A stretch of 64,000 bases of DNA from contig NZ_JAIUZO010000002.1 of the NCBI RefSeq assembly GCF_020171365.1, forward strand, positions 1,054,001 through 1,118,000. Reading direction: 5' to 3'. Position 1 is the first letter of the stretch. Each line of letters opens with the position of its first letter. Below are positions 33,989 to 44,180 of this stretch, one piece after another. Below the pieces are notes generated by a model. It made no database searches. It saw only the letters and a program-made list of their open reading frames with translations, and was not told where the DNA came from. The position numbers and the translations under genes were made by a program. This DNA is from Qipengyuania gaetbuli (GTDB lineage Bacteria > Pseudomonadota > Alphaproteobacteria > Sphingomonadales > Sphingomonadaceae).

Positions 33989-35545
33989 ATGGGAGAGACT
34001 GAACCGGCCGCTCGACTCGCTGAACCTTTCGGCGACTTTTCCGCGATCATTTCGGACTGGGCGCAGCGCCAGCCCGATGCGCCTGCCCTGCGCGACGGGG
34101 CGGACACCATGTCCTGGGGTGAACTTGGGGACCAGGTCGAACGGATCGCCGCGCGCCTGCTCGAGACCGGGCTGGAACGCGGACAGTCGGTCGCCATCCT
34201 CGGCGTCTCGTCGATTCCCTATGCCCTCGTCTTCCTTGCCGCGATCAGGGCGGGCGGCGTCGCTGCGCCGCTGACCACCAGCGCCAGTCCCGAGCAGCTT
34301 GCCGCCATGGCGCGCGATTCGGGCGCGCAGCATATCTTCGTCACGCGCGCGAAGCTGGACGACATGGGCGACGGCGCCTTCCCGGGCATGGAGCGCGTGA
34401 TTCTCGACGAGGAGCTCGCCGGCTGGATGGCTCCCGCCGGCACCACTGCGCGAACCCATGTCCCCGAGCCGGGCGACCCGTTCAACATCATCTATTCTTC
34501 CGGCACGACCGGCACGCCCAAGGGCATCGTCCATTCGCACCAGATGCGCTGGCGCCAGTTCGCCGCGACCGCTGCCAGCTGGCTCGAGGCGGGCCTGCCG
34601 GTGCGCACACTGGCATCGACGCCGCTTTATTCGAACACCACCATGGTCGCCTTCCTGCCCGCCCTGCTGGCTGGCGGCACGGTGCGCGTGATGGGCAAGT
34701 TCGACACGATCGGCTGGCTCGGCCATGCAGCGGCCGATCGCACGACCATCACCATGCTGGTGCCCGTGCAATACCAGCGCCTGATGGACGAGCCGCGGTT
34801 CGATGAATTCGACCTGTCGGCGCTGCAGCTCAAATACTGTACCTCGGCCCCCTTCTCGGCAGAGCTGAAGCGCGAGGTGCTGGCACGGATGCCGGGCGCG
34901 CTGATCGAGATCTATTCGATGACCGAAGGCGGGGTCGTGTGCCTCTTGGAAGCGCACAAGTTCCCCGACAAGCTGCACACCGTGGGGCGCCCCGCCCCTG
35001 GCAGCGAGCTGAAGGTGCTGGACGACGAGGACCGCGAAGTCCCGCCCGGCACGCCCGGCAACCTCGTGGGCCGCAGCCACACCATGATGAGCGGATACAA
35101 GAACCGCCCCGACCAGACGCGCGACGGCTACTGGAGCGATCCCGCCACGGGCGAGACCTGGCAGCGCATGGGCGACATCGGCCGCGTCGATGCCGAGGGC
35201 TTCGTCGAGCTGGTGGGCCGCGCCAAGGACATGATCATCTCGGGCGGGTTCAACATCTTCCCGGTCGACCTCGAGAACGAACTGCTCAAGGAAGCAGGCG
35301 TGCGCGAGGCGGCGGTCATCGGCATGCCTTCGCGCCGCTGGGGCGAAACGCCGGTCGGCTTCGTGACCCTGTCGCAGGATGCCGAAGGGCCCGACGCGAT
35401 CCGCGAGGCGGTGAACGCCCGGCTCGGCAAGACGCAGCGGCTCGCCCAGCTGCTCGCGATCGACGACATGCCGCGCAGCCACATCGGCAAGCTGCTCAAG
35501 ACGGAACTGCGCCAGATCGCCGAAACGCTCGGCACGCCCGACTGA
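33989..35545 (+). CDS. AMP-dependent acyl-CoA synthetase/ligase
   Basis: A 518-residue ANL superfamily enzyme. The P-loop is YSSGTTGTPKGIVHSH, the adenine-binding motif is IEIYSMTEGGVVCL, the hinge Asp and Arg are in RMGDIGRVDAEGFVELVGRA and the C-terminal catalytic Lys is in RSHIGKLLKTELR. It would activate a carboxylic acid to acyl-AMP and then the CoA ester; the chain type is not evident (resembles FadD-like and 4-coumarate ligase-like proteins). ATG 33989 is used; the family core begins soon after. Stands alone on its transcript. Confidence 0.9.
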   Translation: MGETEPAARLAEPFGDFSAIISDWAQRQPDAPALRDGADTMSWGELGDQVERIAARLLETGLERGQSVAILGVSSIPYALVFLAAIRAGGVAAPLTTSASPEQLAAMARDSGAQHIFVTRAKLDDMGDGAFPGMERVILDEELAGWMAPAGTTARTHVPEPGDPFNIIYSSGTTGTPKGIVHSHQMRWRQFAATAASWLEAGLPVRTLASTPLYSNTTMVAFLPALLAGGTVRVMGKFDTIGWLGHAAADRTTITMLVPVQYQRLMDEPRFDEFDLSALQLKYCTSAPFSAELKREVLARMPGALIEIYSMTEGGVVCLLEAHKFPDKLHTVGRPAPGSELKVLDDEDREVPPGTPGNLVGRSHTMMSGYKNRPDQTRDGYWSDPATGETWQRMGDIGRVDAEGFVELVGRAKDMIISGGFNIFPVDLENELLKEAGVREAAVIGMPSRRWGETPVGFVTLSQDAEGPDAIREAVNARLGKTQRLAQLLAIDDMPRSHIGKLLKTELRQIAETLGTPD

Positions 35546-35648: not shown

Positions 35649-36059
35649 ACGGGGGGAGGGGGGAGAGGAGGTGTGGGCGGCCGCGTCTCTACTCGCTGCC
35701 ATATCGCCTCGCGCCGGACGGCATTGCGCTAGGAGTCGCATCGGCGCTTGGCCGGCTCGTCCCGAGCGAGGAAGGCGACGACAGGAAACTCGGGGGGGAG
35801 GATCTGCCGCCATCTCTGTTCCGGTAACGCTCGGGGCAGTGCCCTCGGCGCCGGATGTGAGGGTTGTAATAATCTTGCTGGCGGACGAACAAAAGTGAGA
35901 AAAGGTCAGGGTGTGTTGCGTTTTGCGCAAGTACCAAACCGCCATCTCCCTAGGGCGACACGCAACTCGCATTTGCATCCCGCGCAAGACTGCGACAAAA
36001 TCGCGAAAAAATAGAGGGGGTTGCCGAGTCGAATCCGGGGTCGCATCCGGAGAGCACAC

Positions 36060-38093
36060 TTGGCGGAACGTCACTACAAGGCATTCATGAGCTATTCGCA
36101 CCGCGACCGGCAGGTGGCGAACTGGCTCCATCGCGCGCTCGAAACCTATCGCCTGCCTCCGCACATGATTGCCGCCGGCAGGGCCGAGCGCCTGCGCCCG
36201 ATCTTCAAGGATCGCGACGAGCTGCCCGCTTCCGACAGCCTCGGCGATGCGATCGAGACGGCCATCCGGTCGAGCGACGCGCTGATCGTCCTGTGTTCGC
36301 CGGCCGCCGCCGCATCCCCCTGGATCGCGCGCGAGGTCGATCTCTACAAGCGCATCCATGGCGACCGCGGCGTGATGCCCGTGGTGGTCGAGGGCGAGCC
36401 GCCGGGCAATTTCCCCGCCCCGCTGCTGGTCCACTACGAAAACGGCGAGCCGACCGATCGCGAGGCGGAGCCCATCGCCGCCGACATGCGACCCGAAGCC
36501 GACGGCAAGAAGCTGGCCAAGCTCAAGCTTGTCGCCGGGCTGGCAGGTGTCGATCTCGACCATCTCGTCCAGCGCGATGCGGCGCGGCGCCAGCGCAAGC
36601 TGGTCATGGTGGCAGGGGCATCGGCCCTCGGCATGATCGGGACCACGGCCCTGTCCGCCTATGCCATCGACCAGCGCAACGAGGCGCGGGAGCAAAGGGC
36701 AGAAGCCGACGGGCTGATCGAATACATGCTGACCGACCTGCGCAAGCAGCTGGAGCCGGTCGGCCGGCTGGAACTGCTCGACGGCGTGGGCAAGCGCGCG
36801 ATGGACTATTACGCCCGCCAGAAGCTGGCCGACCTGTCCGCCACCGAACTCGGCCGCCGGGCGCGCGCCACCATGCTCGTGGCCGAGGTCCAGAACCTGC
36901 GCGGCAACAATGCCGAGGCACTGCCCGCCTTCCGCCAGGCCGCCCGCACCACGGCCGAACTGCTCGAACGCAAGCCCGACGACCCGGAACGCATGTTCAA
37001 CCACGGGCAGAGCCTGTTCTGGGTCGGCTACATCGCCTGGCAGCATGGCCGGCTGGGCGAGGCGCGCAAGGCGATGGAGGATTACGCCGACATCTCCCAC
37101 CGGCTCGCGGCAAAAGACCGCTCCAACCTCGTCTGGCAGATGGAGGAGGCCTATTCGCTATCGAACCTCGGCACGATGGCGAAAGAGGCCGGTGAGCTGG
37201 CAAGCGCGCTCGACTATTTCCGCCGCAATATCGAGCTGACCGAGATCGTCTCCGTCAAGGAAGGGCGCCCCGTCGCCCGCGAGATCGAGATCGCCGGCGG
37301 CCTGTCCTGGGTCGCCTCCACCTTGCAGTCGCTGGGCCGGATGGGCGAGGCGCTGGAGGCACGGCGCAAGGAACTGGCGATCCTAGACAAGGTCGTGGCC
37401 GATGATCCCGCCAATATCGAGGCGCGCAAGGGCCGCATCTTCTCGCTGGCCAACATCGGGCAGCTCGAGGCCTTCCAAGGCGACCGCGTCGCGGCACGCA
37501 AGTCGCTCGATGCTGCCATCGCGGACTTCGACAGGGTGCTCGTCGCTGACGGGGACAATACGCTGGTGAAGGAACTGGGCCGCGCTGCCCTGCGCGACCG
37601 CGCCCTGCTGGCATGGTCCGACGGAGACGATGCCCTCGCCAGCAGGCAATTCGACCGGCTGGAATCCATCCAGGCCGACCTGATCGCGCGGGACCGGAAG
37701 AATTACGAATGGACGGTCAGCGCTCCGGCCGTCCTCGACCTGCAGCGCGCCATTACCGATCGCAGCACCTTGTCCGCAGCGGCGCTGCACGAGATTGCCG
37801 ATAAGTGGGACGACGCGCTCGAACCCAAAGATCCGGACCGCCAGTTCGTCCGCATCGCCAGCCGGATGGTGCATGCCGCAGCCTACCGGAAGGAAGGCGA
37901 TGCCGCCCGCGCCCGCAAGGCCTATGCCGCCGCGCTGGCAGTGCCGGAAACCAAGGGAGAACGGGTCGACTTCCGCTCCATCGCGCTGCGTGCGGTCGCG
38001 GCCGAGAAGACCGGCCAGCGCCAGCTGGCAGCGCGGCTTCGCGCCCGCCTGGAGAAGCTGGGCATCAAGCCGCTGATCGACGACCGGCTTTGA
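36060..38093 (+). CDS. TIR-transmembrane-TPR protein
   Basis: A 677-residue protein from TTG 36060, chosen because CCGGAGAG lies 5 bases upstream and TIR proteins begin right before the first strand ([20 protein letters not shown]). The TIR domain spans about residues 5-125: BB-loop [17 protein letters not shown], then [20 protein letters not shown] with the predicted catalytic Glu92 (WIAREVDLY). After a basic patch (ARRQRK) a single membrane helix covers about 180-203 ([20 protein letters not shown]), then a coiled coil ([20 protein letters not shown]) and about 400 residues of TPR-like helices ([20 protein letters not shown]). Positive-inside charge predicts TIR in the cytoplasm and TPRs outside. 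TIR domains often cleave NAD or signal with cyclic ADP-ribose products; activity here is inferred. Confidence 0.88.
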
Positions 38094-38135
38094 GGCGGGA
38101 CATTTCGACGAACCAGCAGGAGAGAGGACCAGACG

Positions 38136-38633
38136 ATGAGCAAGGACATCTCGATCGACGTGACGATCAGCAACGTGAGGAAACGCACCGGGCAACCCTA
38201 TACCGACCAGTACGAGTGCGATTTCCACTTCGCTTCGACTGCCAGCGAAGTGACCGACAATGGAGACGTCGACCTGTCCTGCGTCACGCAAGACGCCAAG
38301 CTGACCTTCAACCTCAAGACCACCAGTTTCGAGATGAACAACAAAATCTACCAGTGCGCCTTTCCGGCCAGCGTGAACGAGGCCTTCTGGATCGCGCGGA
38401 AGGGCGGGCCGCCTCCGGGCAAGGGCAACGCGCCGCCGATGGCGGGCGGAGGCAAGCTGGGCAAACAGTTCGCCGTGGGCAATGGCTCCAACCAGACCAA
38501 GGCCATCCTCGAGGACGACAACGACGACGGCAATTCATGGAAATATTGCCTGGTGATGGAATTCGCCCTGGGCAAGGCACCCAAGGAGATCATCATCGAT
38601 CCCGTCATCATCAACCGGAAGCCGGATTTGTAA
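38136..38633 (+). CDS. Unknown beta-rich protein coupled to the TIR gene
   Basis: A 165-residue soluble protein starting 42 bases after the TIR gene, with a strong AGGAGAGAGG site. It looks beta-rich: [48 protein letters not shown], then a flexible Gly/Pro linker ([18 protein letters not shown]) and [20 protein letters not shown]. No signal peptide, no membrane helix. I do not recognise the family. Position suggests a partner, sensor or regulator of the TIR protein; that is inference. Confidence 0.78.
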
Positions 38634-38698: not shown

Positions 38699-40273
38699 AT
38701 GGACGACGCGCACCTTCCCGATTCCATCCTTATCGTCGATTTCGGCAGCCAGGTTACCCAGCTCATCGCACGCCGCGTGCGCGAAGCGGGTGTCTATTCC
38801 GAGATCGCGCCCTTCACGCAGGCCGAAGAGGCATTCCACCGGCTGAAGCCCAAGGGCATCATCCTGTCGGGCTCGCCTGCCGGCGTACCCGAAGAGGGCA
38901 GCCCGCGCGCGCCCGAGATGCTTTTCGAGGCAGGCATCCCGATCCTCGGTATCTGCTACGGCCAGCAGGTCATGAGCCACCAATTGGGCGGCGAGGTCCG
39001 TCCGGGCCATGAAACGGGCGAAGGCGGCGAATTCGGCCGGGCCTATCTCACCGTCACCAAGGACTGCGCCCTGTTCGACGGGCTGTGGCAGGTCGGCGAG
39101 CGTCACCAGGTCTGGATGAGCCACGGCGACAAGGTGACCAGGTTCGCCCCCGGCTTCGAGATCGTCGCCATTTCCGACGGCGCGCCCTTCGCAGTGATCG
39201 CCGACGAGGAACGCAAGTTCTACGGCACGCAGTTCCACCCCGAGGTCGTCCATACGCCCGACGGCGGCAGGCTGATCGCCAATTTCGTGCGCCACGTCTG
39301 CGGCCTTGCGGGCGACTGGACCATGGCCGCCTATCGCGAGACCAAGGTGCGCGAAATCCGCGAACAGGTCGGCGACGGCAAGGTGATCTGCGGGTTGTCG
39401 GGCGGCGTCGACAGCTCGGTCGCGGCGATCCTCATCCACGAGGCGATCGGCGATCAGCTGACCTGCGTCTTCGTCGACCACGGCCTGCTGCGATTGAACG
39501 AACGCGAACAGGTCGAGACCATGTTCCGCGACCATTACAACATCCCGTTGGTCGTCGTGGACGCGGAAGAGATGTTCATGGAAGGCCTTGCCGGGGTCAC
39601 CGACCCCGAAGCCAAGCGCAAGTTCATCGGCAAGACTTTCATCGATGTGTTCGAAGCCGAGGCCAAGAAGGTCGGCGGCGCGGACTTCCTCGCGCAGGGC
39701 ACGCTCTATCCCGACGTCATCGAAAGCGTCAGCTTCACCGGCGGGCCGAGCGTGACGATCAAGAGCCACCACAATGTTGGCGGCCTGCCCGAACGCATGA
39801 ACATGAAGCTGGTCGAGCCGCTGCGCGAACTGTTCAAGGACGAGGTGCGCGAGTTGGGCCGAGAACTGGGCCTGCCCGACATGTTCGTCGGCCGTCATCC
39901 CTTCCCCGGACCGGGCCTTGCGATCCGCATCCCGGGCGAGGTCACCAAGGAACGCTGCGACATCCTGCGCAAGGCCGACGCGATCTATCTCGACGAGATC
40001 CGCAAGGCCGGTCTTTACGACGCGATCTGGCAGGCCTTTGCCGTGCTGCTGCCGGTCAAGACCGTGGGCGTGATGGGCGATTATCGCACCTATGACAGCG
40101 TCTGCGGCCTGCGCGCGGTGACATCGACCGATGGCATGACCGCCGACGTCTACCCCTTCGATGCCGCCTTCCTGACGGGCTGTGCCACGCGCATCGTCAA
40201 CGAGGTGCAGGGCATCAACCGCGTGGTTTACGACTACACCTCGAAGCCGCCGGGCACGATCGAGTGGGAGTGA
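38699..40273 (+). CDS. guaA: GMP synthase (glutamine-hydrolysing)
   Basis: A 524-residue enzyme converting XMP to GMP with glutamine and ATP. The class I amidotransferase half has the nucleophile in [19 protein letters not shown] and QFHPEV; the ATP-pyrophosphatase half has the PP-loop [20 protein letters not shown]; the C-terminal dimerisation domain has [19 protein letters not shown] and ends KPPGTIEWE. All catalytic residues are present and length is typical. ATG 38699 starts just before the first strand ([20 protein letters not shown]). Confidence 0.98.
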
Positions 40274-43919: not shown

Positions 43920-44180
43920 TTACCGGTGGCCCGGATCGCCGCCTTCGGAAATATCCATCAGCGTGGACTGGTCGACGCCGTCCGCCGGACCGCCTTCGAG
44001 GACGAAGCGGCGGTCGCAATAGCCGCAGTCGACATAGCCGTGCTCGTCGATCTCGAGGTAGACCTTGGGATGGCCGAGCGCGATCGGCTTGTAGTTTTCA
44101 CCGCTGCGGATGTCGGTTGCACCGTCGCACCACACGCGGCGCGTGGTGACCTTGGACACTTCGGGAGGAGGCAGGCTCAT
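43920..44180 (-). CDS. CHCC zinc-finger domain protein
   Basis: An 86-residue protein with a zf-CHCC module: VWCDGATD, a His in IALGHPKVYLEID, and VDCGYCDRRFVLEGG. The four metal ligands are present. Related to the small zinc protein NDUFS6 of complex I, common in alphaproteobacteria. It lies divergent to the ABC ATPase gene and 42 bases upstream of tldD on the same strand. Confidence 0.9.
   Translation of the reverse strand: MSLPPPEVSKVTTRRVWCDGATDIRSGENYKPIALGHPKVYLEIDEHGYVDCGYCDRRFVLEGGPADGVDQSTLMDISEGGDPGHR

Follow-up and report, generated by a model that had tools for sequence, protein, structure and literature searches.

A candidate modular membrane receptor unit of Qipengyuania gaetbuli: a TIR-TPR protein and its small partner

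Organization and conservation of the two-gene unit

The present analysis concerns a 64,000-nucleotide stretch of the Qipengyuania gaetbuli genome (RefSeq assembly GCF_020171365.1, contig NZ_JAIUZO010000002.1, positions 1,054,001 to 1,118,000; hereinafter the window, with coordinates counted from its first nucleotide) and, within it, a unit of two forward-strand genes (36060..38633). The first gene (36060..38093) encodes a 677-amino-acid (aa) protein that combines a TIR domain, a transmembrane (TM) segment and a TPR-like region (hereinafter TIR-TM-TPR). Its TTG start codon is preceded by a predicted ribosome-binding site, GGAGAG (36049..36054), and homologs from the same genus align from this start; a second in-frame TTG lies upstream, at 36021. 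The TIR domain (residues 9-116, 36084..36407) is recognized over the Pfam cut-offs both as TIR_2 (7e-17) and, in residues 9-95, as the ThsB-type domain ThsB_TIR (PF08937; 4.8e-8, 33.7 bits against a cut-off of 21.2), and its predicted catalytic glutamate, in the WIAREVDL motif, is residue 92 counted from the TTG at 36060 (codon 36333..36335). A basic patch (RDAARRQRK) precedes the single hydrophobic segment, at approximately 36600..36656 (hydropathy in a 19-residue window), and the remainder consists of a linker and a predicted TPR ectodomain (36708..38090), which is assigned by homology to the nSTAND1 proteins discussed below and by TPR models each of which scores below its own Pfam cut-off; residues 401-660 form its variable distal part. 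The second gene (38136..38633, ATG start) encodes a 165-aa protein, hereinafter the partner, and begins 42 nucleotides after the end of the first; AGGAGAGAGG (38118..38127) is its own strong ribosome-binding site. Homologs, a predicted model and fold matches point to a beta sandwich resembling SO1698 of the DP-EP family, with an Asp155-Pro156 dipeptide (38598..38603) that opens a C-terminal Asp-Pro-x-x-x-Asn (DPxxxN) motif. The open reading frames (ORFs) and the Pfam TIR matches thus bear out the two-gene layout described in a first-pass annotation of the window, including the separate ribosome-binding site of the second gene.

The same annotation singled out the glutamate as the predicted catalytic residue, and a Glu is indeed found at the equivalent position in 107 of 108 TIR proteins from the loci described below, the remaining one having an alignment gap there. 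The TIR domain would be an NAD-consuming output, with catalysis predicted from sequence. A second weak TIR-like match in the same genome (G000:C2:1769045-1769233, E 2e-4) lies within a 581-aa frame.

Adjacency of the two genes is conserved in the genus. Among 61 genomes of relatives, the TIR protein is found in 24 and the partner in 10 (E<=0.001). Fourteen loci of the genus have a full-length TIR match (51-100% identity), and at each of them a small gene begins -4 to +86 nucleotides after the TIR gene; BLASTP relates 11 of these small genes, counting that of the window, to the partner, and the other three encode a 111-aa protein with the related end IDPKIVDR. Both genes are carried by Qipengyuania gaetbuli DP7N0-1 (98% and 95%). 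The TIR genes of three other genomes of the genus (G009, G014 and G021) align in part only and have no DPxxxN ORF directly downstream, and for one such gene in G014 the motif occurs in the upstream gene.

Linkage extends to the order, where the TIR protein is present in 84 of 296 genomes (E<=1e-20). The 105 loci analyzed, which include the window and leave out about ten places of this search, contain 108 TIR ORFs, and in 98 of these homology reaches into the TPR region. An ORF ending in DPxxxN lies downstream of 48 of the 98 TIR-TM-TPR genes, compared to 4 of 512 control anchors (the 10 shorter ORFs, one of which has such a neighbor, are left out of this count). The expectation that the two genes are linked in other genomes is therefore upheld in both genus and order. 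A profile of the partner tail, run over all ORFs of the loci, returned 55 rows at E<=0.01, each close to a TIR gene and on its strand, with 54 downstream of or overlapping its end and one upstream; the seeds of this profile were picked by position and motif, only 10 of the 55 rows are non-seed (L054, L088, L091, L095 and L116 among them), and in two rows, L104 and the second one of L098, the overlap with the TIR gene is far from the end of that gene. The results presented below for PF20301 and PF08985 are independent of these seeds. Two tandem partners are found in L088, L106 and L122, and L087 contains two adjacent TIR units, each with a partner.

Other small genes accompany some TIR-TM-TPR genes. 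In another branch, PEP-CTERM-like proteins follow (L147:2391-3467 over the Pfam cut-off, L065:5216-6292 just below it), and PEP-CTERM or similar exported proteins were identified by eye downstream in L064, L150 and L159; these may be the exported equivalent of the partner. A family of 205-224 aa ending in a GGIHPP-like motif, without a Pfam match over the cut-off in the four members tested, is located behind the TIR-TM-TPR gene in L131:7224-7838, L134, L137:4349-5020, L138:7382-8053, L139:4609-5250 and L140, with variants of the motif in L131, L134 and L140. Weak matches to the partner tail (E 0.017 to 0.84) on the opposite strand, convergent with and at most 5 nucleotides from the end of the TIR gene in L096, L097 and L056, represent either chance or inverted partners. 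A gammaproteobacterial match, L012, was rejected, as it covers 38 residues of an ORF that is phage-tail-like and has no TIR match.

The unit is located between the genes for an AMP-binding enzyme (acs, 33989..35545) and GMP synthase (guaA, 38699..40273), both on the forward strand. In 51 of 60 genomes of the genus, these flanks share one contig and one strand. The gap between them measures 3.0-6.0 kb in 16 of these genomes, 1.6-2.6 kb in another five and less than 1 kb in 30. All 16 gaps of 3.0-6.0 kb contain a full-length TIR match, whereas the remaining 35 contain none. The unit thus comes and goes at a fixed address. The five gaps of 1.6-2.6 kb (G112, G191, G020, G1110 and G219), in which no TIR match lies, suggest that other cargo can occupy the same slot.

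Co-occurrence with known defense genes, which the first-pass annotation had raised, is not apparent in the neighborhood. Among 20 neighboring ORFs (27-51.5 kb; chosen by length on both strands, some of them non-genes, and 4 of the first 10 without a Pfam match at 1e-10), PADLOC detected no known defense system at E<=1e-5 and gave generic matches only, namely the AAA/ABC models mad3, AriA, mad8 and PDC-M25A for the ORF at 44110 (ABC ATPase according to Pfam) and mad2 for that at 40182 (3.6e-6). A defense island is not seen in these ORFs, and the unit occupies its fixed address between housekeeping genes, so that a role in defense lacks support.

The partner family and the swap of output domains

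The window partner has no match in Pfam or PADLOC at E<=1 or in NCBIfam at E<=0.01, and among 5.8 billion proteins a search with the single sequence retrieved four relatives and a profile search nine. Residues D155, P156 and N160 are invariant in all 17 aligned partners. The AlphaFold model of the partner is nearly all beta, and a search with this model ranks SO1698 of Shewanella oneidensis (PDB 3n55 and 3njf-3njn, deposited as an aspartic peptidase) above PixA/AidA, the initial guess for the identity of the partner, which was dropped; PixA/AidA (PF12306) is also absent from the list of 10 families that the 17 aligned partners match at E<=5. Accordingly, the partner is predicted to adopt the SO1698/DP-EP fold, as a small beta sandwich in which the C-terminal Asp-Pro-x-x-x-Asn is conserved. 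Its initial description as a protein of unrecognized family thus holds for the Pfam, PADLOC and NCBIfam searches and fails for the predicted fold and the C-terminal motif, both of which can be recognized.

The DP-EP family (PF08985), formerly DUF1888, has a solved structure, and we know of no role for it; SO1698 is said, in work of Osipiuk et al. from 2012, to cleave itself and to form a Lys98-Asp116 link. Aligned through the DP-EP profile, Asp155-Pro156 of the window partner corresponds to Asp116-Pro117 of SO1698. In 12 of 12 DP-EP proteins, D112, P113 and N117 are invariant, and so is the serine two residues before the aspartate (Ser114 in SO1698), but the window partner has Ile153 at this position. 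The Tyr26 equivalent is invariant in the 12 proteins as well, in a region that falls outside the alignment with the window partner, and the Asp37 and Lys98 positions vary even among DP-EP proteins (alignment judged by eye). Of the conserved SO1698 residues, only the Asp-Pro and the following Asn are surely kept in the window partner. The PF08985 model does not match the window partner at E<=1, the 111-aa partner of G034 reaches E 0.038, below the cut-off, and a profile search of the PDB with the 111-aa partners gave no match.

Other partners match PF20301 (pNTSase1), a family annotated as 'Predicted novel nucleotide synthetase' and reportedly originating from Burroughs and Aravind (2020). Out of 40 diverse partners, 12 reach this family at E<=5, with 2.8e-65 as the best value and some of the scores under the cut-off, and its genes are found downstream of TIR-TM-TPR in 15 of 15 places, one of which (G247) is at a contig end where the TIR gene is visible only as its TM-TPR part. 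PF20301 matches neither the window partner, nor the window's genome (G000), nor any of the 17 aligned partners, and it was found in 0 of 240 genomes of a class sample, in which no control matched either, so that this zero is uninformative. The AlphaFold model of a PF20301 protein is confident and nearly all beta, with SO1698 as its only Foldseek matches at E<=0.001; after this result the identity as a nucleotide synthetase was set aside, the model lending no support to the name.

DP-type partners are not restricted to TIR proteins. In one gammaproteobacterial order, 11 of 119 genomes have DP-EP genes (PF08985 over the cut-off), and at all 11 loci this gene follows a large gene of the TM-TPR type (product 1051-1112 aa). 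The large proteins combine a Trans_reg_C winged helix, an nSTAND1 domain and TPRs (Pfam, run for three of them), and they share homology with the window protein across the TM-TPR half (24% over 373 aa, E 3e-24; 27% over 247 aa). Because a homologous TM-TPR part and a DP-type partner occur with either output, the core of the system consists of TM-TPR and the DP-type beta sandwich, and TIR or winged helix-turn-helix (wHTH)-nSTAND1 is the variable element. In other words, the receptor is modular and its output domain is swapped. PF08985 is scarce, with 1 of 200 genomes in a phylum sample and 1 of 274 in the class of that genome; it is over the cut-off in none of the 61 genomes of relatives, and tblastn with a DP-EP protein against plasmids gave no match.

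Membrane topology and co-variation of the two proteins

Simple hydropathy served to assess topology and signal peptides, and the border between TIR and TPR was placed by motif or at a fixed position. A central hydrophobic segment is present in 98 of 107 TIR proteins, and in these Lys and Arg are more numerous before it than after it in 89, equally numerous in 5 and fewer in 4. The number of cysteines is even in the TPR part of 85 of the 98 (none in 34, the window protein among them, two in 47 and four in 4) versus 38 of 98 for the TIR part, in proteins that are related by descent and thus not phylogenetically independent. All 11 nSTAND1 proteins have two or four TPR cysteines, with one pair kept near the C-terminus and a spacing different from that in the TIR proteins, and the central segment is at the matching place in 8 of the 10 that were scanned (L198 was left out). 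With paired TPR cysteines and a DNA-binding domain that is inside, the TPR part is placed outside. A cytosolic TIR domain and a TPR region that lies outside the inner membrane, in the manner of an envelope-facing receptor, are therefore well supported as a prediction from charge distribution and cysteine parity, in agreement with the topology initially put forward.

The two proteins diverge at different rates. Over 14 loci, TIR domains share a mean pairwise identity of 72%, TPR parts one of 53% and partners one of 35%; in 60-residue windows of the TIR protein, average identity amounts to 62-77% in residues 1-380 and 37-45% in residues 401-660. The distance between partners correlates best with that of TPR residues 401-660 (r up to 0.70). 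In partial Mantel tests on 13 loci, the correlation between partner and TPR given TIR is 0.587 (p 2e-4), compared to 0.10 between partner and TIR given TPR. The simplest reading of this co-variation is contact between the partner and the distal TPR region.

Lipoprotein-like signals were detected on two DP-type partners, L063:6596-7312, the gene of which is upstream of the TIR gene, and L132:4718-5518. A Sec-type signal peptide is found on L193:8227-8733, the second DP-EP copy of a tandem that lies behind a large gene of the wHTH-nSTAND1-TM-TPR type.

Possible mechanism and relation to known systems

We propose, with a probability of about one half, that the two genes form a membrane receptor unit with a cytosolic TIR domain, an outward TPR region and a DP-type partner that is cognate to the TPR ectodomain, as its regulator or ligand. 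The TPR superhelix outside the inner membrane would act as the receptor, and a change of the TPR-partner state, with the beta-sandwich partner gained, lost or cleaved, would be relayed through the membrane. The TIR domains, kept quiet until then, would be clustered or released, and NAD would be consumed or an ADP-ribose signal made. In gammaproteobacteria, the homologous TM-TPR and DP-type partner would drive the DNA-binding wHTH-nSTAND1 output instead. The partner might be a sensor or modulator of TIR, as the first-pass annotation had it. We are highly confident in the anatomy of the unit; as to the direction of control, our confidence is moderate to low.

Several observations weigh against this proposal. 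A DPxxxN ORF directly downstream is missing for 50 of the 98 TIR-TM-TPR genes, some of which have other neighbors, and the nSTAND1 loci were found through DP-EP searches, so that these 11 loci sample only nSTAND1-TM-TPR genes with a DP-EP neighbor. Confidence in the model of the window partner is middling (69.0-79.7 for five models, below 50 for residues 92-107). In profile comparisons, the group of the window partner meets the DP-EP profile over 48 C-terminal columns only (68%), a further figure of 94% rests on a profile of four close sequences, and the comparisons with PF20301 give 3.5% for the window group and 0.8%, nothing significant, for DP-EP; with profile links this weak or short, the deeper homology of the partners rests on predicted structure. 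Hydropathy gives two segments in 27 of the 107 TIR proteins, three in 3 and none in 8. Signal-like N-terminal segments are rare, with 2 among 57 TIR-linked DP-type partners and one (L193) among 12 listed gammaproteobacterial copies, and the cysteine counts of partners have no parity bias (28 of 56 even), so that partner and TPR would normally be on opposite sides of the membrane. The main puzzle is thus that the partner co-varies with the distal TPR region yet nearly all copies are without a signal peptide. The co-variation could also result from linked recombination at the 3'-end or from shared fast evolution, and close pairs are under purifying selection, with an omega of 0.07-0.20 for the partner; the computed pairs accordingly show no positive selection on it.

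The lack of export signals in nearly all partners and of cysteine parity among them would be readily accommodated if the partner were a cytosolic, antitoxin-like brake, the loss of which frees a toxic NADase, with the TPRs serving as a scaffold or sensing otherwise; the adjacency of the genes and the small size of the partner also fit a toxin-antitoxin layout. We nevertheless consider this rather unlikely. DP-type partners are also found beside wHTH-nSTAND1-TM-TPR-type proteins without TIR, which makes TM-TPR the constant element; divergence of the partner follows TPR rather than TIR; and three partners carry export or lipoprotein signals. An alarm for breach or lysis would reconcile a leaderless cytosolic partner with an outward TPR region, in that the two would meet, and TIR fire, when the membrane is opened or a sibling bursts. 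The inner membrane would be opened by phage lysis or a secreted toxin, the Asp-Pro end of the partner would lock onto the TPRs, the variable partner and distal TPR region would be a strain-specific lock and key, and other outputs would report to transcription. This scenario seems improbable to us. The invariance of Asp-Pro in the 17 partners and its match to Asp116-Pro117 of a deposited peptidase make cleavage at this site attractive as a sequence-based idea: Asp155-Pro156 would be cut, the free aspartate would cross-link to a lysine of the partner itself or of the TPR region, and the covalent product would be the signal. Such self-cleavage or self-ligation is slightly more doubtful still, given the replacement of the Ser114 equivalent by Ile153, a Tyr26 equivalent outside the alignment, and the variation of Asp37 and Lys98 within DP-EP itself.

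Two further explanations appear markedly less plausible. The ThsB_TIR score and the kept glutamate would fit a Thoeris-type signal generator with an effector elsewhere, but no ThsA model is among the PADLOC matches of the 20 ORFs (a search restricted to this neighborhood), the best PADLOC match of the TIR protein is SAVED_TIR (2.3e-4), and ThsB is not known to have a membrane-anchored TPR architecture or such a fixed gene partner; we regard this option as very unlikely. Least credible is a partner that, as the name of PF20301 implies, is a nucleotide synthetase making a signal for TIR or TPR. The matches of 12 of the 40 diverse partners, the NCBI naming of such proteins as nucleotide synthetases, and polar residues of PF20301 conserved beyond the DP motif speak for it, but the PF20301 model is nearly all beta with matches to SO1698 only, and neither the window partner nor its 17 aligned relatives match PF20301.

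Full-text searches, with most subscription papers outside their coverage, returned no description of the unit, nor the term 'pNTSase'. If the proposal is correct, it would unite three groups so far annotated apart, namely TIR-TPR proteins of the membrane, the 'aspartic peptidase' family DP-EP and the PF20301 'nucleotide synthetase'; the name of PF20301 would be misleading, and SO1698 would be a solved template for testing partner function. It would also define a modular bacterial receptor in which an outward TPR region and a beta-sandwich partner drive either TIR or a transcription factor.

Among the known families compared with the partner, PixA/AidA (PF12306) and MakD of Vibrio cholerae are weaker structural matches linked by fold only, and we know of no TIR or TM-TPR partner of these proteins. 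SO1698 shares with the window partner the predicted fold and a C-terminal DPxxxN with INR (its end is SPDPQIINRP), whereas the window partner is below Pfam detection, approximately 40 residues longer and without the Ser114 equivalent, and pairs with a TIR output rather than with the wHTH-nSTAND1 output of PF08985 genes. PF20301 proteins resemble it in gene position directly behind TIR-TM-TPR and in predicted fold, with IDPDIKNPPP at the C-terminus, and differ in their conserved core residues, without a mutual sequence match over the threshold. The window TIR protein shares the ThsB_TIR match and the catalytic-position Glu with Thoeris ThsB and soluble TIR defense proteins, and is unlike them in its membrane anchor, its outward TPR region and the lack of a ThsA model match in the 20 neighboring ORFs. 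CadC-like wHTH and wHTH-nSTAND1 membrane regulators have the homologous TM-TPR half and the DP-type partner, as in the window unit, with DNA binding and a STAND NTPase as output in place of TIR. If the proposal holds, the layout of this outward-facing TIR receptor would be similar to that of animal Toll-like receptors, a resemblance that does not extend to the descent of its sensor.
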